The notes beneath the pieces are model-generated. The model saw nothing but the letters and a program-made list of their open reading frames with translations. It was not told the origin of the DNA and made no database searches. From a virus, in the IMG/VR virus record IMGVR_UViG_3300042868_004419, positions 1-34,447 of that record: a stretch of DNA of 34,447 bases. The stretch is one strand, 5' to 3'. Numbering within the stretch: the first letter of the stretch is position 1; every line of letters begins with the position of its first letter. Shown here piece by piece: positions 17,573 to 30,737 of the stretch. The translations under genes were made by a program, and so were the position numbers.

Positions 17573-19804
17573 TTATCCGTTAAACGCCGCTCCAGTTGGT
17601 AAGATGTTGAAATCAATTTGAATGAATTCAGCTGTCTTAGTTGGTTGTAAGTAGATAGCTCCTTTCATAATGTTTCTATCAATTACATCTGGTGTGTTGT
17701 TTGAATCATCCATCACAACTCTAAATGCATAAAGTCCTTGTCTTTGTTGAATTGCTTCTAAGTAAGGGTTTACGATGTTTAAGAATCTGTTTCTAGTTTC
17801 AGAAGTATTTTGTTCGAATACTAAATATCTTGAAGTAGATGCGATGTATTTTCTAACAGTTAATAATAATCTTCTTACATTGATTCTATCCAATGCAGAT
17901 GGTTTATCTTGTAATGTTTTTTGTCCGAATACTACGATACCTTGTCCTGGGAACTGAACGATTGGATTTACCTTTCCTTCATATAATGTATCTTTTTCCG
18001 ATTGAGTTAAACGATTTTGAACTGCTACTGCTCCAATCAATCCACCTCTATTTAAACCCGCTGGTGCGAACCATTCTGCTGCTACTCTATCGTTAGATGC
18101 AAATACACCAGGTAATAATACTGATGGTGGTACTGCAATTAACTTATTAGTATTAACATCAATAGTTTTAATCCAAGGGTAGTAAGATGCTGCGTAGTTA
18201 GAATCAACATCATTTGCTTGTCCTACTGCGTTTGTTATTGAATCCGAATATGTTGTTGTGTCCATTATGTAGAAACAATCACTTCTTTCTTCAACCATAT
18301 CTAAAATATCAGTTGTTACCGCGGTGTGCAATCTTCTAATAACACCAGGAGTTACAATCATATTAACATCGTATTCATCTTGGTTAGATAATGCCGATAC
18401 GTGCTTTCCGTAAGCAATAGAGCCAGATGATAATGATGTAGAAAGATTAAATCCTTGTGAGTTTCCTGCTATAATACTATCTCCTTTGTAGATAGGTGTT
18501 GCGGGGCTCATACCATCAAAACCTTCTTGGAATGCTACTAAGAATTGTGCTGCTGAATTACCAACAGATAATGCTCCTCCGTTTGCCGCATCTACTCCAA
18601 ATGCTACGTTAGCACCTACACCTGCTCCGTTAGGAATTGGCTTTAAGTAAATTGAGTTATCAGTATTACCATCTAAATCAATACCACCATATACAGTTGC
18701 CGAAGAACTAACATAAGTTACTGAAGGAATTAATGAACCAATTCCTGCTGATGCTGAGATTGGTAATGTATAAGCTCCATGTCCAAAAGGAACTGCTTGA
18801 ACTGGTGAGTTTTCGTTTAATTCAGAAATTCTAATATATTTTGAGTTATTAACCCAATCACCATTTTCAGTTATTTTACCATCTGATGCAATTGTTCTTT
18901 TTCTATCACCAATTACTCTTGCGATGTAGTTAGGAGAGTTAGGGTCTAAGTTTACATTAGAATAAGTTTCCAATACTACTTTCTTTTTGTTTGTATCAGA
19001 ACCATCTCTAACAACAACTGTGAATGTACCGTAATCAGTACCATTTACAGAACCTGCTGCTTTAATGTTTGTAATACCGATTTTAACTTTAGTATTTGCT
19101 GCATTTCCCGCACCAATTGTTTCAAAACGGAAAAGATTTGTTCTTTCTCCAGAAATCAATTGTGATTGGATAAATGGTGTCAATGCTTCTTGTGCATCAA
19201 ATGTATATGCTTGGTCTGCTAATACCGTTACACTTGCACTTGTAGCTGATACAAATGGAACATTATGATTTTTAAAAAATCCATAAACATAAGGTTTTTT
19301 TGCTCCAAATGCAGATAATCCAAATACAGATTCAATATCATCCGTATCAGATGCTTCCAAAGATGCGGATAATAATCCTGCGTTTGAACCCGAAATTAAA
19401 AATTGACCAGATGAACCGACTGTTACAGTTGTTCCTGCAAAACCTGCGTTTGAACCACTTGCCGTATTAAATAAAATACCAACAGATGCCGATATTGAAC
19501 CCGAAGTTACTGTTAATAATAAAGGAGCAGTTTCAGTATATCCGCCGATACCCGCAACTCTACAAATTGTAGCAGTTCCTGCTTCTCTTAAATATGATTG
19601 TACTGCTAAAGGTGTGTAGTATGTATCATCAACTGTTCCGAACAAAGTTTCGAATTCTGTTTGAGAATTAACGATTGTTGGAACTAATGGTCCTTCTTTA
19701 AAAGGTCCGATGAATGCTGCACCAATATCAGCTACACCTTGTTGTAAAAATGAAAGGTCGTTTTCTTTTGTAAAAACACCTGGTGATACTATTTTGTCTG
19801 CCAT
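17573..19804 (-). CDS. 18: Contractile tail sheath protein (gp18)
   Basis: 743 aa. The N-terminus KIVSPGVFTKENDLSFLQQGV with AAFIGPFKEGP is the classic sheath start. The C-terminal domain is the most conserved part: ASNDRVAAEWFAPAGLNRGGL, VNPIVQFPGQGIVVFGQKTL, SALDRINVRRLLLTVRKYI, and ending FIQIDFNILPTGAAF. Subunits form the contracting tube around gp19. The central region (about 90-430) is Ser/Ala/Gly-rich and variable, forming the outer protrusion domains. An ATATTTAT motif (19840-19847) lies 36 nt upstream, and a TTG occurs 19 nt upstream of its overlapping TATATTTA, so a host-like reading is also possible. Confidence 0.95.
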   Translation of the reverse strand: MADKIVSPGVFTKENDLSFLQQGVADIGAAFIGPFKEGPLVPTIVNSQTEFETLFGTVDDTYYTPLAVQSYLREAGTATICRVAGIGGYTETAPLLLTVTSGSISASVGILFNTASGSNAGFAGTTVTVGSSGQFLISGSNAGLLSASLEASDTDDIESVFGLSAFGAKKPYVYGFFKNHNVPFVSATSASVTVLADQAYTFDAQEALTPFIQSQLISGERTNLFRFETIGAGNAANTKVKIGITNIKAAGSVNGTDYGTFTVVVRDGSDTNKKKVVLETYSNVNLDPNSPNYIARVIGDRKRTIASDGKITENGDWVNNSKYIRISELNENSPVQAVPFGHGAYTLPISASAGIGSLIPSVTYVSSSATVYGGIDLDGNTDNSIYLKPIPNGAGVGANVAFGVDAANGGALSVGNSAAQFLVAFQEGFDGMSPATPIYKGDSIIAGNSQGFNLSTSLSSGSIAYGKHVSALSNQDEYDVNMIVTPGVIRRLHTAVTTDILDMVEERSDCFYIMDTTTYSDSITNAVGQANDVDSNYAASYYPWIKTIDVNTNKLIAVPPSVLLPGVFASNDRVAAEWFAPAGLNRGGLIGAVAVQNRLTQSEKDTLYEGKVNPIVQFPGQGIVVFGQKTLQDKPSALDRINVRRLLLTVRKYIASTSRYLVFEQNTSETRNRFLNIVNPYLEAIQQRQGLYAFRVVMDDSNNTPDVIDRNIMKGAIYLQPTKTAEFIQIDFNILPTGAAFNG

Positions 19805-19874: not shown

Positions 19875-21623
19875 TTATTTGTAGTTTGGAGAGAAATAAT
19901 CATATACCTGGTCTACTAAGGCTAAAGTTTGTAATGTGTTATAAAACAATACTGGTCCGATTTGTCCATTCCAAAATGATGTTCTTGCACTATTTGAACC
20001 TATCGTTACATAGTTTGTAGATGATGGTGCAGTAAATGCTGCTGAGGTAAGTATTCCTACTGATACACCATCTACATATATTGTACAAGTACCACTTGGT
20101 TGGAATGCCGCTGAAATCATATACCAAACATTTGATGATAATGATGTTGCTAATTGTGCACTATTTCCTAATGTACTACCATAGAATTTAACTCTATTTA
20201 AAGTAGAACTATCGGTTGATTCAATTGCTAAACCATAAAAACCTGCATAGTCAAAAATGTGTCTTGTAGTTGTACCCAATGTTGTTGTAGGTCTTACCCA
20301 AACGTGAATAGTACCTGTATTAGTATTAAATTGAGAAATACCACCATTAACATTTGATGCGGTATCTTTATAGAACAAATCACCACCATCAAAAGAATAA
20401 TATCTTTCTTTTCTACTTGCACCACTATTGTATGCTGGGTTTGAACTTGCTCTTGATAGAGGGCCCTGTGCTCCAGGTCTAACACCCGTACCATACCCAC
20501 TCATATCCAATAAATCCACCGTTGGTGTACCGGTTGCAGGTAGAGAACCTGCTGCAAATGATGCAGTTTTAGCAGGCTCTAAATACATTCTTAATCCAGA
20601 TGCAGGAATAGATGGTTGTGTGGTTGTTCCTTTGTTGTGTGATATTGTACCATTTGCCAAATAAACGTCAGCATTCTCCACATTAAGTGTTACAATTTCA
20701 ACATCTTCTATTATTTTAGCAACATCATATACCAAAACTTCAACTAAACCACCATTTTCATCATAAGTTAATACTGAATCTCCTGGTAATATAGTTTCTA
20801 CTATTTTAAAGTGATATTTTTGTGTTTCAAAATCAAACACATATAATGGGTGAGTTCCAGTTGCTTTTATTAAACCATTGTTAATATTATAATATCCACT
20901 TGCAAAATTAAATGTAATATCAGATACAGTTACATCTTGATATTCACCTGCTGCGGTCTCCGAATTAAACATTCTCCATTCTGTTGATTCTGTATCTGTA
21001 CCATCTAATGATTCATCTGGCAATCCTGCTGGCACCCATGCTTTAATTACATCACCAACTGCCAAATCTTCTACATTTACAACAGTATTATCTGCTTTTG
21101 TTACCGGAGTATCAAATAATAAACAGAAATCAGTTTGGTTAATTGTGTTATAAACATCAACTGCGTATAATGTTTTTGTAACAGTAGAGTTATAATTGGT
21201 TGCCGCAGTATTAAAACCATCGTTATAAGTCATTGATAAAACGGATTGTGCTTCCGAATATGTTGATACTGCTATTGATGCAGGTGTTACTGGAAAAGAT
21301 GGAGTTGCTCCTAATGTTGCACTACCAACCGTAAAGTTTGCATTATTAAATGATACTGTATAGTTTGCAGCTACACTACCAACTCTTGTACCATGAGCAG
21401 CTCCTGCACTTCCAAATGTAAATGTGGCGTTTTCTGCAGTACTTTCTACAATATATGTAAAAGTTGGTGGAGTTACTGTTACTGAATCAATTGCAAATGA
21501 ACCAAATGAAACTTGCGTTCCAGCTGCAGCATTTCTTGCATTTAATGATGATTCTTGTGAAGTTCTTGCTGAACCTACAGTTGCTCTGTATAAATTTCCT
21601 AAAGATAAATTAGTTTTTGGCAT
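19875..21623 (-). CDS. Tail adhesin with embedded Hint (intein-like) domain and C-terminal LamG-like domain
   Basis: 582 aa. Residues 1-166 are beta-rich and Ser/Thr/Ala-rich, probably the virion-attached part. A Hint domain spans about 167-330: Cys167 in DFCLLFDTPV with VEDLAVGDVIKAW (block A), ATGTHPLYV with His258 (block B), KIVETILPGDSVLTYDE, and VTLNVENADVYLANGTISHN ending in His329-Asn330 (blocks F/G). The next residue is Lys331, not Cys/Ser/Thr, so standard intein splicing is unlikely and a bacterial-intein-like cleaving domain fits better. Residues 340-582 look like a LamG/concanavalin-type jelly roll (LRMYLEPAKT, YYSFDGGD, GTIHVWVRP, WYMISAAFQPSGTCTIYVDG, WNGQIGPVLFY), probably carbohydrate-binding. 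No homing endonuclease insert is seen. Confidence 0.8.
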   Translation of the reverse strand: MPKTNLSLGNLYRATVGSARTSQESSLNARNAAAGTQVSFGSFAIDSVTVTPPTFTYIVESTAENATFTFGSAGAAHGTRVGSVAANYTVSFNNANFTVGSATLGATPSFPVTPASIAVSTYSEAQSVLSMTYNDGFNTAATNYNSTVTKTLYAVDVYNTINQTDFCLLFDTPVTKADNTVVNVEDLAVGDVIKAWVPAGLPDESLDGTDTESTEWRMFNSETAAGEYQDVTVSDITFNFASGYYNINNGLIKATGTHPLYVFDFETQKYHFKIVETILPGDSVLTYDENGGLVEVLVYDVAKIIEDVEIVTLNVENADVYLANGTISHNKGTTTQPSIPASGLRMYLEPAKTASFAAGSLPATGTPTVDLLDMSGYGTGVRPGAQGPLSRASSNPAYNSGASRKERYYSFDGGDLFYKDTASNVNGGISQFNTNTGTIHVWVRPTTTLGTTTRHIFDYAGFYGLAIESTDSSTLNRVKFYGSTLGNSAQLATSLSSNVWYMISAAFQPSGTCTIYVDGVSVGILTSAAFTAPSSTNYVTIGSNSARTSFWNGQIGPVLFYNTLQTLALVDQVYDYFSPNYK

Positions 21624-21634
21624 ATTAGTATGTG

Positions 21635-22633
21635 TTATTCTCCGTTATAAATATCTAAAAGTTTTTCTTTCCATACATCTTTATTTCCAAAATGTGTTTT
21701 CATCCAATCTTTTAGTTTGTGATGTTCTGTTTTTCTTTCTTCATAACTATCTTTACAGATTTGCTCATAGGTTTCCTTAAAAGTTTCTGCATCTTTTGCT
21801 TTATATTTGTAGTCAAGGGGAATACACCAGTTTTCATGTAATATTGGTATCTTACCCCAATCAACTGCTTCAAATATTCCATATCCGAAGGGTTCATTTT
21901 CAAAACACGAGTGAGATACACCCCAATCAAGTCCGTAGAACCTTTCTTTAAATTTATAATCAAACTTATAAATTTTACTTTTTTCGAATTTATGTCCATA
22001 CTTCTTTCGGTAATATTTATTAAATGTTTCTGAATTTGTTGAAATGTAATTTTCAAATGGCTCTATGAACTCTAAATTCTTTCTACCTTCCGCTCTTGCG
22101 GCAAATCCAATTTTTAATGACTCCGAAACTTCTTTATTTGCTGTAAATTCGTAACAATTTGGTATATGATATAAATTTTCTGTTTTATATGGAAAATGAT
22201 ATAATCCTACCCAAACTTTATTTTTAATCTTATCAATCATTTCTGATTCATATTCCCAATTACCATACCAATGTAAGTATTCATCTTTTTCCATTTGTGC
22301 CATTAAAGACACTTTTGTTAAATTATGAAAAACGATTGAATCAATCTTTTCCAAATTTTGATGAATAGCTCTGGTTGGAGTGTAATGACCATGTAGAATA
22401 TGTATCCGTCTTGCACCTTCTAAATGTTTTATAATTTCATCTTCAGATGTTTCCCAAATATGGTCAATATTGATTTCAAAATCCTCATAATTTTGAGGTT
22501 TATGTCTATGGAAAAGAAGAAGTGGCTTTACCTCTAAATCAGGAGCCACTTCTTTTATCCATTGTGTTACCCACATATCTGCACCACTATTGAACCAGGG
22601 TCCTCCTGCGGTGGTATAGTAAACGTCGTACAT
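21635..22633 (-). CDS. GT-B glycosyltransferase (GT4-like)
   Basis: 332 aa. The N-terminal half has YYTTAGGPWFNSGADMWVTQWIKEVAP, a nucleotide-sugar enzyme start with a Gly-rich loop, and IHILHGHYTP. The C-terminal half has KIGFAARAEGRKNLEFIEPF (174-193), the hinge and donor-site region, and GVSHSCFENEPFGYGIFEAVDWGKIPI (238-264), the E-x(7)-E-type donor-binding motif of GT4 enzymes. No signal or membrane segment. It sits between a fibre gene (3-nt gap) and the Hint adhesin, so virion fibres or host surface glycans are likely acceptors; the acceptor is inferred. Its last codons (DIYNGE) contain the ATATTTAT motif for the next gene. Confidence 0.8.
   Translation of the reverse strand: MYDVYYTTAGGPWFNSGADMWVTQWIKEVAPDLEVKPLLLFHRHKPQNYEDFEINIDHIWETSEDEIIKHLEGARRIHILHGHYTPTRAIHQNLEKIDSIVFHNLTKVSLMAQMEKDEYLHWYGNWEYESEMIDKIKNKVWVGLYHFPYKTENLYHIPNCYEFTANKEVSESLKIGFAARAEGRKNLEFIEPFENYISTNSETFNKYYRKKYGHKFEKSKIYKFDYKFKERFYGLDWGVSHSCFENEPFGYGIFEAVDWGKIPILHENWCIPLDYKYKAKDAETFKETYEQICKDSYEERKTEHHKLKDWMKTHFGNKDVWKEKLLDIYNGE
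21647..21654 (-). promoter_or_regulatory. Late-promoter-like motif ATATTTAT within a coding end
   Basis: The octamer is part of the Asp-Ile-Tyr codons at the end of the glycosyltransferase gene and lies 24 nt upstream of the Hint adhesin start. Confidence 0.45.
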
Positions 22634-22636
22634 TTA

Positions 22637-24001
22637 TTAAGAACCTATTTGTGCTTTTAACTCTTCTATTTGCTTTTGTTGTTCTTTAATCGCTTCTACC
22701 AATAAACCCATCATTTTAGAATAATCTAACGCTAAGAAACCATCTTCTCTAGTTTTAATTACTTCTGGTAAAACTTCTTGAACTTCTTGTGCTATCAAAC
22801 CCGTCTTTGGAGTTGATTTTGTTACTTCATTTACATCATCATTCCATTCCCAAGTTACACCATTTAATTTAGATACTTTATCTAATGCGTTTGGAATAAT
22901 TTGAATGTTATTCTTATGTCTCTTATCTGAAGTAAAGAATGCCGTAATATCACCTGTTGCAGTAATAGTTCCGTTAATGGTTAAGTTACCATGTGTTACT
23001 GCCGAAGTTGTTAATAATGCTTGGTTAATTATTGTTCCATATCCAGTTGTAGAAGATATAGTTACTTGCGAAGAACCTGATACAGTTCCGGTTGGTAATA
23101 ATGGAGTTACTTGTGTAGAACCTGAAACTACACCCGTTGGTAAGTTTGCAATCGTTTGTAGTGAACTCGAAACTATACCACCTGGAATACCAGTTATTGA
23201 TGTGTAATTTACTTGTGATGAACCCGAAAATAGTGTTCCAAGTGCACTTCTAATTTGGTCAGAGGTAACTGAACTACCCAATGCGGTGGATGTACCTGCT
23301 ATTGTTATTGAACTATTTGTTAATTGTGCGTTTCCAATTCCTGTTACTTGTGATGAACCACTTACTATTCCTGCTGGTATAGAAGATATATTTGCGTATG
23401 TAATTTGTGATGAACCAGTTACTATTCCACTTCCACCTAATATTTGTGAAGAACCCGATATTACACCATCCGTATTAATTTTAGTTTTAATCGTTGTATC
23501 GATTGAACTTGTAAATGAATTTAAATTTGTTATAGATGTATTTGATGAGCCCGTTGCAGCTTCTAATGCGGTTAATGTTGCTGCACTTAATGATTTTACA
23601 ACACTTGTACCTTCTACAAATTTAATTGAACCGGTTGATATATAAAGGTCTCTCCAAATTTTATCAGCAGAACCTAAATCAAATGCGTTTGTTGTTTGTG
23701 GAATAAGAGATGAACTCAAAGATGCTACAACATTTACAGTATCAGCAGTTGCATCACCAATTGTGATAGCTCCACCTAATGTTAAATTACCATCAATTTT
23801 CGCATTTCCCGTAATATCCAATGATGAACCCGAAATTCCAGCGAATGAACCCTGACTTCCTGTTCCGGAAGCTCCTAGTGTAATATCACCGGTTGCTCCT
23901 CCAATTTGTAATGTTCCTAAGTCTGTATTTACATACGGCTCTCCGAATGCTAACGAACCAGATTTTTGTGCGTTCGTCCCACGTCTAAATTTAAGTCCCA
24001 T
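22637..24001 (-). CDS. Tail fibre with C-terminal S74 self-cleaving chaperone, 454 aa
   Basis: The N-terminus GLKFRRGTNAQKSGSLAFGEPYVNTDLGTLQIG is the RRGT...GE...TD...L-IG module common to phage receptor-binding proteins. The shaft consists of repeats around (I)SGSSQVT and P-x-GIVSGSSQ. The C-terminus is an S74 intramolecular chaperone: SDKRHKNNI with Ser358 and Lys363 as the expected catalytic dyad, TGLIAQEVQEVLPEVI, LDYSKMMGLLVEAIKEQQKQIEEL (trimeric coiled coil). In this family the chaperone trimerises the fibre and then cuts itself off. A late-like motif is 52 nt upstream. The glycosyltransferase gene begins 3 nt after this gene. Confidence 0.85.
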   Translation of the reverse strand: MGLKFRRGTNAQKSGSLAFGEPYVNTDLGTLQIGGATGDITLGASGTGSQGSFAGISGSSLDITGNAKIDGNLTLGGAITIGDATADTVNVVASLSSSLIPQTTNAFDLGSADKIWRDLYISTGSIKFVEGTSVVKSLSAATLTALEAATGSSNTSITNLNSFTSSIDTTIKTKINTDGVISGSSQILGGSGIVTGSSQITYANISSIPAGIVSGSSQVTGIGNAQLTNSSITIAGTSTALGSSVTSDQIRSALGTLFSGSSQVNYTSITGIPGGIVSSSLQTIANLPTGVVSGSTQVTPLLPTGTVSGSSQVTISSTTGYGTIINQALLTTSAVTHGNLTINGTITATGDITAFFTSDKRHKNNIQIIPNALDKVSKLNGVTWEWNDDVNEVTKSTPKTGLIAQEVQEVLPEVIKTREDGFLALDYSKMMGLLVEAIKEQQKQIEELKAQIGS

Positions 24002-27084: not shown

Positions 27085-27678
27085 TTATTTGTAACTATCT
27101 CCCCCTACCCATAAAACTAAACTTTTTCGTATTCCTTTTGTTATTGGAGTTACTCTATGAAGTAAAAATGATGGAAAAAGAATTGAAGTTCCTTTTAATT
27201 TTTCAACTTTTTTAAAATCACCACCTGACCAAATTTCTAAATCACCTCCTTCATAATCATTTGGGTCTGAAAGTTGTATTGTTATACTAATTTTTCTGTG
27301 ATTGATTAAACCTGGTCCAATATCTAAATGCCAATCATAATGCCCGCCACCTTCGTAATATTCGGTATATTGTATTGAATCTACAATTGAATGTAAATTG
27401 AATTGCCAAATTTGTGAATTTGCATCAATTACTAAATCTTTTAATTTATCATATAACCAATCAGAATATTCATCATAATGAATCCATTTTATTTTAGATT
27501 TTCTAATAGCATTTTCTGGTGTTTCTTCATTTGAAATAACTTTTGCATCTTGATATGGATATAGATTTTTTAAATTATCAATCCACATTAATTCTTCTTC
27601 GGAAAATGTATCTGTATATCCAAAATAATTTGTTTGGTCTATTTTTGGGTTTGTTTGAAATATTGGTTTTACGTTCAT
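27085..27678 (-). CDS. 2-oxoglutarate/Fe(II)-dependent oxygenase (prolyl-4-hydroxylase fold)
   Basis: 197 aa. The HxD...H...R iron and 2-oxoglutarate ligands are visible: HYDWHLDIG (His117, Asp119), FPSFLLHRVTPI (His174) and GIRKSLVLWVGG (Arg184). YYEGGGHYDWH and YEGGDLEIWSG are typical of the P4H/PiuC-like group. Substrate cannot be read from sequence; hydroxylation of a protein side chain is the family norm. The gene starts 6 nt after the halogenase-like gene, with fibre genes on both sides. T4-like cyanophages often carry a 2OG-Fe(II) oxygenase near tail genes, so this may be a fibre-modifying enzyme. Confidence 0.88.
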   Translation of the reverse strand: MNVKPIFQTNPKIDQTNYFGYTDTFSEEELMWIDNLKNLYPYQDAKVISNEETPENAIRKSKIKWIHYDEYSDWLYDKLKDLVIDANSQIWQFNLHSIVDSIQYTEYYEGGGHYDWHLDIGPGLINHRKISITIQLSDPNDYEGGDLEIWSGGDFKKVEKLKGTSILFPSFLLHRVTPITKGIRKSLVLWVGGDSYK

Positions 27679-27684
27679 AACAAA

Positions 27685-29253
27685 TTATTGTAGTATATAT
27701 TTAATAAATTCACTATGTTTTATAAATGAACCTGTAGTACTTAATTTTAAATTTTGTTTATACTTGCGTATATGTATTAATATTTCATCTCTACGAGTAC
27801 TCATTGCCAAACTATCTAGTAATTCTTGAGCCTTATTTATATCAAATAATTCTAATCCTGCTAAAATACTATACCAGCTAAGTAAATTATATATCCAATA
27901 ATTTTTACCATTTTCAAAGAAAAATATACTATTAGGTATTGTTAATTTACATTCATTTAATAATTTTATAATACCTTCCGGTGCGGTAGTTTTATTTTTA
28001 AATTCTGTCCAAAATTTACTTGATGTTCGTTTTGTTAAATAATGTAGATATATAAATTCTAAAGTTTCATTATTAATTGATTCAACACTTTTATTATAAC
28101 GATTTCTATAATATTCGTTGTCTGGATTAATTCCTAAAAAATTATCTAAAAAAATATCCAATGATATTGCTTGATTCATTATTGATGTTGCTTCCAATGG
28201 TTCAACAAATCCGGAAGACAAACCTATTGCAATGCAATTATTAACCCATGATTTTTCATAATATCCCGCTTCAAATTCAAATGATTTTCCAAATGATATG
28301 TCATTACCAAATGTTTTTATTATTTCGTCTTTTGCTAAATCTTCTGTAATATAATTAGAGTCGTACACATACCCACATCTAAATCCAGTTTGAAGAGGTA
28401 TTTTCCACACCCATCCAAAATCCATAGCTATTGATTCAGTATAAGGTGGAATTTCATTTTCATCTTCAAAATCCATTGAGAATCCAATAGCCCGTTTCAT
28501 AGGAAGGTGTTCTTTATATGAAATCCATTTAGTTTTATATAACCCACCAATAACTAATTTTTTAAATCCTGAACAATCAAATACAAAGTTTGTTGGGTAT
28601 TCTTTACCACTTTTTGTATGGATGAATTTTATATATTCATTTTCACCTAATGAAAAATCAACTACTTCATCATCCACATACTCAACACCACGTTTAATAG
28701 CAACATCTTTTAAAAAATTAGCCATCAATGTTGCATCAAAATGAATAGCATTTGGACCTATACTATCAAAATGAGAAATAGGGTCATCTAATTTATTATG
28801 TGGATTTAAATTTAATGTTTTTTTTATTAAATTTGATTTATGTAAATCAACATCTATAAGAACACTATCCAAACTATTACCTCTAGTAATTTCATCTAAT
28901 AATATTGGAGGAAAGCTGCAATTTGTTTTATTATCAAAAAGTGTTGGATTAAACCAATCTTTGTTATTGAATATGTGGTGGTAGCTTTTGCCATCACCAT
29001 TCCAATTAGTAAATTTAATGGCTTCTTTAACAGTAGCATTAGTATATTTATAAAAATCACTTTCGCTTATTCCAAGTTTAACTAATAAATTTAATACATT
29101 CGAAGTTGTACCTTCACCCGCTCCTAATATACCAATATCTGAACTAGATATTACTCTTATAGCACAATATGGGTAATATTTTTCAAGGTATAATGCGGTC
29201 AACCATCCAGATGTACCTGAACCAATTATTGTAAATATGTATTTATTTTTCAT
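27685..29253 (-). CDS. Flavin-dependent tryptophan halogenase-like enzyme
   Basis: 522 aa. IIGSGTSGWLTALYL (9-23) is the GxGxxG FAD-binding site. ATVKEAIKFTNW places Lys80 at the position of the catalytic Lys79 of PrnA. GWVWKIP (280-286) is the WxWxIP motif diagnostic of flavin-dependent halogenases, and GFVEPLEATSI carries Glu354 near the second catalytic site. FDCSGF and GAGEGTT are also family features. The family chlorinates or brominates Trp or other aromatics using FADH2 from a partner reductase; no reductase is seen here. Halide use and substrate are unproven, since related phage proteins have not, to my knowledge, been assigned a substrate. It shares a unit with the 2OG-Fe(II) oxygenase. 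Confidence 0.82.
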   Translation of the reverse strand: MKNKYIFTIIGSGTSGWLTALYLEKYYPYCAIRVISSSDIGILGAGEGTTSNVLNLLVKLGISESDFYKYTNATVKEAIKFTNWNGDGKSYHHIFNNKDWFNPTLFDNKTNCSFPPILLDEITRGNSLDSVLIDVDLHKSNLIKKTLNLNPHNKLDDPISHFDSIGPNAIHFDATLMANFLKDVAIKRGVEYVDDEVVDFSLGENEYIKFIHTKSGKEYPTNFVFDCSGFKKLVIGGLYKTKWISYKEHLPMKRAIGFSMDFEDENEIPPYTESIAMDFGWVWKIPLQTGFRCGYVYDSNYITEDLAKDEIIKTFGNDISFGKSFEFEAGYYEKSWVNNCIAIGLSSGFVEPLEATSIMNQAISLDIFLDNFLGINPDNEYYRNRYNKSVESINNETLEFIYLHYLTKRTSSKFWTEFKNKTTAPEGIIKLLNECKLTIPNSIFFFENGKNYWIYNLLSWYSILAGLELFDINKAQELLDSLAMSTRRDEILIHIRKYKQNLKLSTTGSFIKHSEFIKYILQ

Positions 29254-29744: not shown

Positions 29745-30737
29745 TTAACAACTTGGGGTAAATGTTCCTGAACCTTGAAAAACGTGTATGGTGTATCCAC
29801 CCGATGTATATGTATAATTTCCTCCTGAAGCTTGAGTACCACCGGCGTATCTTACTTGAACAATACCAGAACCTCCATAACTTCCTCTTCTACATGGACA
29901 ATCACCTTCACCTCCACCACCTTGACCTCTATTAGCTACACCGTCCATAGCACCTCCCGAATCATACCCATAATAACTACAATACCCACCTCCACCGCCA
30001 CCAATTCCACCAAAATATTCGTGACTACCATTATCATATGTTACTGGGTTTGATGCATTATTCCAGTTTGTTCCACCCGAACCTCCTTGAGATTGCCAAT
30101 TATATTGAGTAAATCCATTACCTGCAAAATTAGCAGCCCCACCACCTCGTCCACCAGTATCGGATGATGCTTGACCTGCTGTTCCTTTTCCACCACCTCC
30201 ACCACCACCTGTTCCAGAAGCTGCACCTCCACCTAATCCCATCCCCGATGTACCCCCACCTGGAAAGTGGTACCCGGCATATCCTTGACCTCCACCACAT
30301 CCACCATCTGCACCATCACTATCCCATGAACCGCCTCCACCACCTCCGTAAGTGTGATTACCACCAAAATAACTATTTCCACCTCTTCCACCTTGAACGC
30401 CAGATTGATAATAAGTATCACAACCTGAGCTTCTAGCACCACCGCCGCCACCTACTACAACACTAATTCCTCCTCCACCTTTAGTCATAGTATAACCATC
30501 AACTCTAGCACCTCCTCCGCCTCCGCCTCCGCCCATATGCTGTCCTCCTCCACCTCCACCAGAAACTATTAATACTGAAAGTGATATGGTGTGTGAATAA
30601 TTATAAAATTCGCTCATTGCATCGGGTGTACCCTTTCCTGCTTGTGCACTCAATGAACGTAATGAATAAGTACCATTGCAACTTATTTCAGTTCTAATTT
30701 GAGATAAAGTAATTCTTCCTGAACCTTGTAATGCCAT
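29745..30737 (-). CDS. Glycine-rich tail fibre adhesin (gp38-like polyglycine protein), 330 aa
   Basis: The N-terminus ALQGSGRITLSQIRTEI...GTPDAMSEFYNYSH is a phage tail-protein start module. From about residue 53 the protein is dominated by Gly runs of 4-9 separated by short variable motifs (MGGGGGGGGARVDG, VVVGGGGGARSSG, GGGYCSYYGYDSGG), the pattern of polyglycine type II helix sandwiches in S16-type gp38 adhesins. The C-terminus YGGSGIVQVRYAGG...YTIHVFQGSGTFTPSC is the usual end of such domains. It contains nine Cys, several in loops. The variable loops would contact the receptor. DNA is locally GC-rich from GGN codons. Promoter: host-like, at 30753-30784. Confidence 0.75.
   Translation of the reverse strand: MALQGSGRITLSQIRTEISCNGTYSLRSLSAQAGKGTPDAMSEFYNYSHTISLSVLIVSGGGGGGQHMGGGGGGGGARVDGYTMTKGGGGISVVVGGGGGARSSGCDTYYQSGVQGGRGGNSYFGGNHTYGGGGGGSWDSDGADGGCGGGQGYAGYHFPGGGTSGMGLGGGAASGTGGGGGGGKGTAGQASSDTGGRGGGAANFAGNGFTQYNWQSQGGSGGTNWNNASNPVTYDNGSHEYFGGIGGGGGGYCSYYGYDSGGAMDGVANRGQGGGGEGDCPCRRGSYGGSGIVQVRYAGGTQASGGNYTYTSGGYTIHVFQGSGTFTPSC

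Follow-up and report, generated by a model that had tools for sequence, protein, structure and literature searches.

The locus described here raises the question of what a Hint domain does in the middle of a probable tail protein of a phage, and why the residue directly behind it is a lysine. Hint domains work through a thioester at their first cysteine (Cys1) and cyclisation of an asparagine at their end. The gene lies in the genome of an uncultured freshwater phage (IMG/VR record IMGVR_UViG_3300042868_004419, positions 1 to 34,447), and this whole stretch of 34,447 nucleotides is referred to as the window.

Layout and fold of the protein

The gene is read on the minus strand, from 21623 to 19875, and encodes 582 aa (Table 1); the plus strand of this interval has stops throughout. 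A sequence-only reading of the window had described the frame as a tail adhesin in which a complete Hint module, with Cys167, TGTHP containing His258, and His329-Asn330 followed by Lys331, precedes a LamG-like domain. The frame and all of these residues are present as described, Pfam recognizes the LamG-like domain, and the Hint module is borne out by structure prediction, with BIL domains as the best solved matches.

Table 1. Features of the Hint gene and its neighbours in the window.
Feature	Position	Strand	Remarks
N-domain / Hint / LamG protein gene	19875..21623	minus	582 aa, stop included in coordinates; full-length homologs exist
N-domain, residues 1-166	21126..21623	minus	conserved in all homologs; starts MPxTNLSLGNLYRA
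N-side junction VDVYNTINQTDF, residues 155-166	21126..21161	minus	nearly invariant in close family
Hint domain, residues 167-330	20634..21125	minus	AlphaFold2 and Foldseek; all 28 members match Hint families below cut-off
Cys167, predicted N-S acyl shift nucleophile	21123..21125	minus	202/202 in deep family
Block B TGTHP, residues 255-259, with His258	20847..20861	minus	His 202/202
His329-Asn330, predicted Asn cyclisation site	20634..20639	minus	201/201 aligned sequences
Lys331-Gly332, +1/+2 residues; Lys331 the proposed amine acceptor	20628..20633	minus	Lys 201/201, Gly 199/201
C-part, residues 331-582	19878..20633	minus	type varies among relatives
LamG / ConA-like lectin domain, residues 430-563	19935..20336	minus	Pfam Laminin_G_3, E 4e-14
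Glycosyltransferase-like gene	21635..22633	minus	directly 5' of Hint gene; conserved partner
Tail sheath gene	17573..19804	minus	directly 3' of Hint gene; phrog_23, 5.6e-67
Tail fibre gene with Peptidase_S74 chaperone	22637..24001	minus	5' of glycosyltransferase-like gene

An AlphaFold2 model of residues 155-345, built on a 28-member family alignment, reached a mean pLDDT of 81.7 and a pTM of 0.79 and has the horseshoe-shaped, all-beta fold of the HINT superfamily. Searched with Foldseek against the PDB, it gave 55 matches at E<=0.001, and the 50 that were listed are all Hint domains of BIL, Hedgehog or intein type. The best match is BIL2 from the Tetrahymena thermophila BUBL1 locus (6Y75; 9.3e-10, TM to target 0.77), followed by the BIL of Clostridium thermocellum (2LWY, 2.8e-8), Hedgehog (1AT0, 2.7e-7) and then inteins, including the class 1 mini-intein of Synechocystis DnaB (1MI8, 3.7e-7). 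The middle domain of the protein is a complete Hint module, and the invariance of its residues, described below, is far beyond chance.

At the level of sequence the similarity is faint. With this protein alone, the Pfam Hint models stay below cut-off (Intein_splicing 0.12, Hint 0.12, Hint_2 0.15), the best curated Hint model scoring 12.8 bits against cut-offs of 28.4-35.8. A search of this phage's record with PF14890 gave no match because the score of the single sequence lies under the threshold. Weak matches to Hint_2 and Intein_splicing recur in 28 of 28 diverse family members, and one relative (L267) clears the PT-HINT cut-off (32.1 against 27.7). Since the Pfam score is sub-threshold while the fold match is clear, the Hint assignment is carried by the fold. 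Pfam matches to AXH (ataxin) in 23 members were discounted, since the beginning of the Hint fold resembles that domain.

The model of the full-length protein has a mean pLDDT of 63.4, with little confidence beyond the Hint, and for this reason the fold of the N-domain was left uninterpreted; a Pfam search of this domain matched no known family, and a comparison with isolate phages gave no match. Against the PDB, the full-length model finds the same BIL entries first and then pentraxins and other LamG-like lectins, which are carbohydrate-binding folds and in some cases domains of larger sugar-binding proteins. Its matches in BFVD were taken as leads only.

Conservation of the junctions and exchange of the C-part

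Relatives were collected in three scans. The close family comes from one protein query (best 80 of 177 related loci). Two further profiles, one of the glycosyltransferase-like gene with a distant homolog from LR756508 placed first (best 80 loci) and one of short-tail forms (best 80 further loci), extend this to a deep family of 202 distinct proteins from viral metagenomes. Two scans of cellular genomes returned no relative. In the close family the N-domain, Hint and C-part layout occurs in 206 of 206 full copies, a count that includes repeats from the same contig and corresponds to 100 distinct proteins; one further copy is cut by a contig end.

Across 53 distinct close homologs C167, T257, H258, H329, N330, K331 and G332 are invariant, and identity to the query is higher beside the junctions than in the Hint interior. 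In the deep family, where identity in distant clades falls to roughly 30-40%, Cys1 and the block B His are retained in all 202 proteins, the terminal His-Asn and the +1 Lys in all 201 that align over this region, and the +2 Gly in 199 of these. One Glu in block F is also invariant, and block F position 4 is, in an alignment made by eye, Thr or Ser as compared to Asp in class 1 inteins. His258, His329, Asn330 and Lys331 show synonymous codon variation, with both Lys codons in use; the Cys codon is TGT throughout. At other phage Hint or intein ends that we encountered, the +1 residue is mostly C, A, L, S, T or V, and Lys in few.

It could be asked whether the Hint is merely a structural element that has lost its reactivity. 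Its activity is a prediction, and in the distant relative from LR756508 SASQ replaces the motif with the block B His, but a retired domain would hardly keep every catalytic residue unchanged in 202 sequences down to the most distant clades, and we regard this explanation as improbable. Some form of active self-processing, by contrast, is very probable.

The part behind the HN-K junction is as variable as the junction is constant: it is LamG-type in 141 proteins, FnIII-type in 49 (a label that stands for a weak Pfam match, E 0.003, under its cut-off), another beta domain in 2 and in 9 just a tail of 6-9 residues, for instance KGTDSDPG and KGSDSNPF. In a tree of the Hint domains, tail-only and domain-bearing forms are intermixed within one clade (support 0.966), so C-parts come and go here. 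The common factor is therefore the N-domain, the Hint and the Lys, and since Lys-Gly is kept despite the swaps, it serves the Hint or its junction and not the fold of the C-part. The sequence-only reading had supposed that processing might release the LamG head or attach it elsewhere. Attachment agrees with what is reported for BIL2; release does not hold as a general account because the same HN-K junction precedes an FnIII-type domain, another domain or none. A C-terminal toxin domain, the mark of polymorphic-toxin PT-HINT proteins, was not found behind the Hint, where LamG-type and FnIII-type domains and short tails stand instead.

Could the Hint be an ordinary class 1 mini-intein, or the remnant of one, and thus a selfish element? 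It does share the fold, Cys1 and the terminal HN with class 1 mini-inteins such as that of DnaB, as well as the block B His. Mini-inteins of that class, however, carry Cys, Ser or Thr at +1 and interrupt host proteins that are otherwise intact and have homologs without the insert, whereas here +1 is Lys in 201 of 201, the C-part is swapped behind the Hint and no insert-free homolog occurs among the relatives seen. With 164 aa the Hint carries no homing endonuclease insert, and a Pfam search for endonuclease families found none in the protein. In the viral_contigs set the exact junction motif was searched for with A, C or G opening the next codon, and no such copy was found; all 74 of 74 loci retrieved by way of the glycosyltransferase-like gene carry the Hint. 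That the protein is never Hint-less holds for the relatives seen, the best 80 per scan. The evidence thus contradicts a selfish element, which is very improbable, and the earlier view that this is not a selfish intein stands.

Possible routes of self-processing

Cys1, the block B His, the terminal His-Asn and a +1 residue other than Cys, Ser or Thr are among the features of type A BIL domains. Because +1 is Lys, transesterification is not available, and the thioester is predicted to go to an amine. We therefore picture a protein of the phage tail module whose BIL-type, self-processing Hint lies between its N-domain and an interchangeable C-part. Cys167, aided by His258, would convert the Phe166-Cys167 bond to a thioester at the C-terminus of the N-domain. 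This would then be taken by an amine, either of Lys331 (on its side chain, or on its backbone once freed) or of an adjacent subunit. Asn330 would cyclise, cutting before Lys331, and the Hint would leave. The product would be an N-domain joined by a peptide or isopeptide bond to the C-part starting with KG, or to a neighbour. BIL-type autoprocessing of this kind, with resolution of the Cys167 thioester by an amine, perhaps that of Lys331, to a ligated or cross-linked virion protein, is the leading candidate, though we stop short of calling it probable.

There is precedent on both sides. BIL domains, in which the +1 nucleophile is missing, are described as yielding mostly cleaved products (PMC7664689), while titles cited in PMC4031507 speak of splicing and ligation by BIL domains that lack it. 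For TthBIL2, passages of PMC8616854 report that an isopeptide bond forms to a C-flank lysine; the acceptor is described as a lysine of ubl5, which these passages do not specify as the +1 residue. The sequence-only reading had considered normal splicing unlikely on account of the +1 Lys. This is correct for the canonical route, which needs a +1 nucleophile, but the reports of BIL ligation and the lysine amine used by BIL2 speak against excluding that the flanks are joined.

BIL2 resembles the phage domain in sitting between two folded domains and in having Cys1 and a terminal Asn (C1A/N143A are mutated in the PDB entries 6Y75 and 6TMM). It differs in its ciliate origin and in its flanks, which are ubiquitin-like domains and not tail domains, and the two share about 19% identity, a sequence profile comparison giving a weak E of 0.09 (about 0.1). 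Zinc control is reported for BIL2, and a +1 Lys rule is not known for it. A fold match alone would not imply the same chemistry, all the more with such weak sequence similarity. Bacterial BIL domains, such as that of C. thermocellum, are likewise free of an endonuclease, lack Cys, Ser or Thr at +1 and conserve Cys1 and HN; the phage family is set apart from them by the invariant +1 Lys, the nearly invariant +2 Gly, the location in a viral tail, the linked glycosyltransferase-like gene and the swapped C-parts.

The main competitor is that the Hint only cuts, at Cys167 by thioester hydrolysis and after Asn330, to give three free pieces, whereupon the N-domain and C-part would stay together non-covalently in the virion or the C-part would be shed. 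The predominance of cleaved products among BIL domains, the conservation of both cut sites and the missing classical +1 nucleophile are what one would expect in that case. The invariant Lys and the nearly invariant Gly after the Asn would be left unexplained, however, as would the HN in relatives with just 6-9 residues behind it, and we consider pure cleavage somewhat unlikely. A cutter acting on one side would presumably not need both sites, which are kept everywhere.

Because the +1 Lys is invariant, it probably has a part in the mechanism and is less likely an accident that disables it. That it is kept whether a lectin, an FnIII-type domain or no domain follows would suit an amine acceptor, but the Lys may instead position Asn330, act as a sorting tag or slow cleavage. 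In the short-tail forms it is hard to see what ligation to a tail of 6-9 residues would achieve, except where another protein serves as the acceptor. We further observed that every short post-HN tail examined (L225, L248, L267, L211, L379, L081) contains a Lys, examples being KGTDSDPG, VHGK, KH, KVD, APVDQKH, AVMVAKK and TDMTAQAEKT. This would fit a role for lysine, as a post hoc observation in few independent families.

Returning to amine-resolved, BIL-type processing, the invariant active site and Lys suggest that the Hint serves phages in joining or cleaving a surface protein as the particle is assembled. That the domain is active, that the thioester goes to an amine in preference to simple hydrolysis and that the domain has its role in virion assembly and maturation is what we infer from these patterns.

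Gene neighbourhood and other phage Hint proteins

All loci whose gene order was mapped share one arrangement: fibre (S74), glycosyltransferase-like gene, Hint, sheath and tube. The sheath follows the Hint gene in 197 of 197 loci with a visible downstream gene. The N-Hint protein adjoins the glycosyltransferase-like gene on the same strand in all 74 newly fetched loci seeded with the latter, and reciprocally the glycosyltransferase-like gene, again on the same strand, is found in all 72 Hint-seeded loci that extend far enough upstream. Even in the huge phage LR756508, which is unrelated, this gene has a homolog whose immediate neighbour codes for a Hint protein ending HNKH. The positions of sheath and partner gene are as first described, but the name glycosyltransferase is based on an EPFGxxxxE motif and drew no support from Pfam or PDB sequence searches.

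This linkage brings to mind a Hedgehog-like transfer, in which the thioester would pass to a sugar or lipid, the acceptor coming from the C-part lectin or from the product of the linked gene. The tightness of the linkage across divergent phages, the frequency of carbohydrate binding among LamG domains and the rank of Hedgehog, which also forms a thioester at Cys1, among the best fold matches would all suit such a reaction. Hedgehog, however, has no C-terminal Asn cleavage and carries a sterol-recognition region after its Hint, while in the phage proteins the terminal HN, dispensable for Hedgehog, is invariant and is followed by a LamG-type domain, an FnIII-type domain or nothing. As the C-part is absent or FnIII-type in many relatives and the partner's activity is putative and motif-based, transfer of this sort has little probability.

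A broader version of amine-resolved processing would see a widespread phage protein-ligase module, in which the side chain of the +1 Lys, or a lysine from an adjacent subunit, receives the thioester, so that tail appendages become covalently linked without ATP or a separate enzyme and are decorated by way of the glycosyltransferase-like gene. In this full form we find the idea doubtful. If the domain is active, many freshwater and marine phages would have a self-processing or self-ligating domain as a standing part of their particles, in a role unlike that of a selfish intein. This would offer a concrete test of whether phages form covalent bonds in tail appendages via Hint, provide new ligation domains with a lysine acceptor and account for a group of tail proteins whose present annotation, where there is one, reads 'hypothetical' or 'intein domain'.

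As an annotation, a Hint domain in a phage tail protein is nothing new. In Erwinia/Dickeya jumbo phages (phrog_38766) and in Trichodesmium phage NCTB, tail or virion proteins bear a homologous, C-terminal Hint and a short post-HN tail, and three of them are already named intein domain proteins in the NCTB record. These differ from the present family in their collagen- and Ig-like N-parts, which have no homology to the N-domain, and in their +1 residue, mostly Thr or Ala with Lys in one NCTB protein. We found no description in the open-access literature of the N-Hint-C family, its Lys rule, the swapped C-parts or the gene linkage. A sheath-based search among isolates led to Flavobacterium immuto phages, Microcystis phage Mel-JY01 and Rhodothermus RM378, whose sheaths are related to that of the window but in none of which a Hint match was found.

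Several further Hint proteins were seen along the way. Two relatives (L223 1-2148; L224 100-2418, minus) encode a second protein with two or three tandem Hint-like domains behind an N-part that, judged by eye, is ATP-grasp-like; at one place in L223 the THN that closes a Hint is followed immediately by the Cys of another. Phages of the short-tail clade have a second Hint protein across the glycosyltransferase-like gene, ending HN-VHxK, where x is G, D or S (L225 1874-3016, L300 1482-2819, L331, L336, L338, L339). The Hint protein of LR756508 (L211 4632-5930), in which SASQ replaces the block B His motif and HN-K is kept, had no relatives in the viral contigs. The same phage has a frame of 1387 aa (L215/L217), portal-like by eye, that is broken by several intein-like segments. 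In the window itself, the tail fibre cluster encloses, at 27085-29253, genes for a 2OG-Fe(II) oxygenase and for a tryptophan halogenase (Pfam 6e-94 for the latter), and a very glycine-rich protein, belonging to phrog_2295, a family with no assigned function, is encoded amid the tail fibre genes at 29745-30737.
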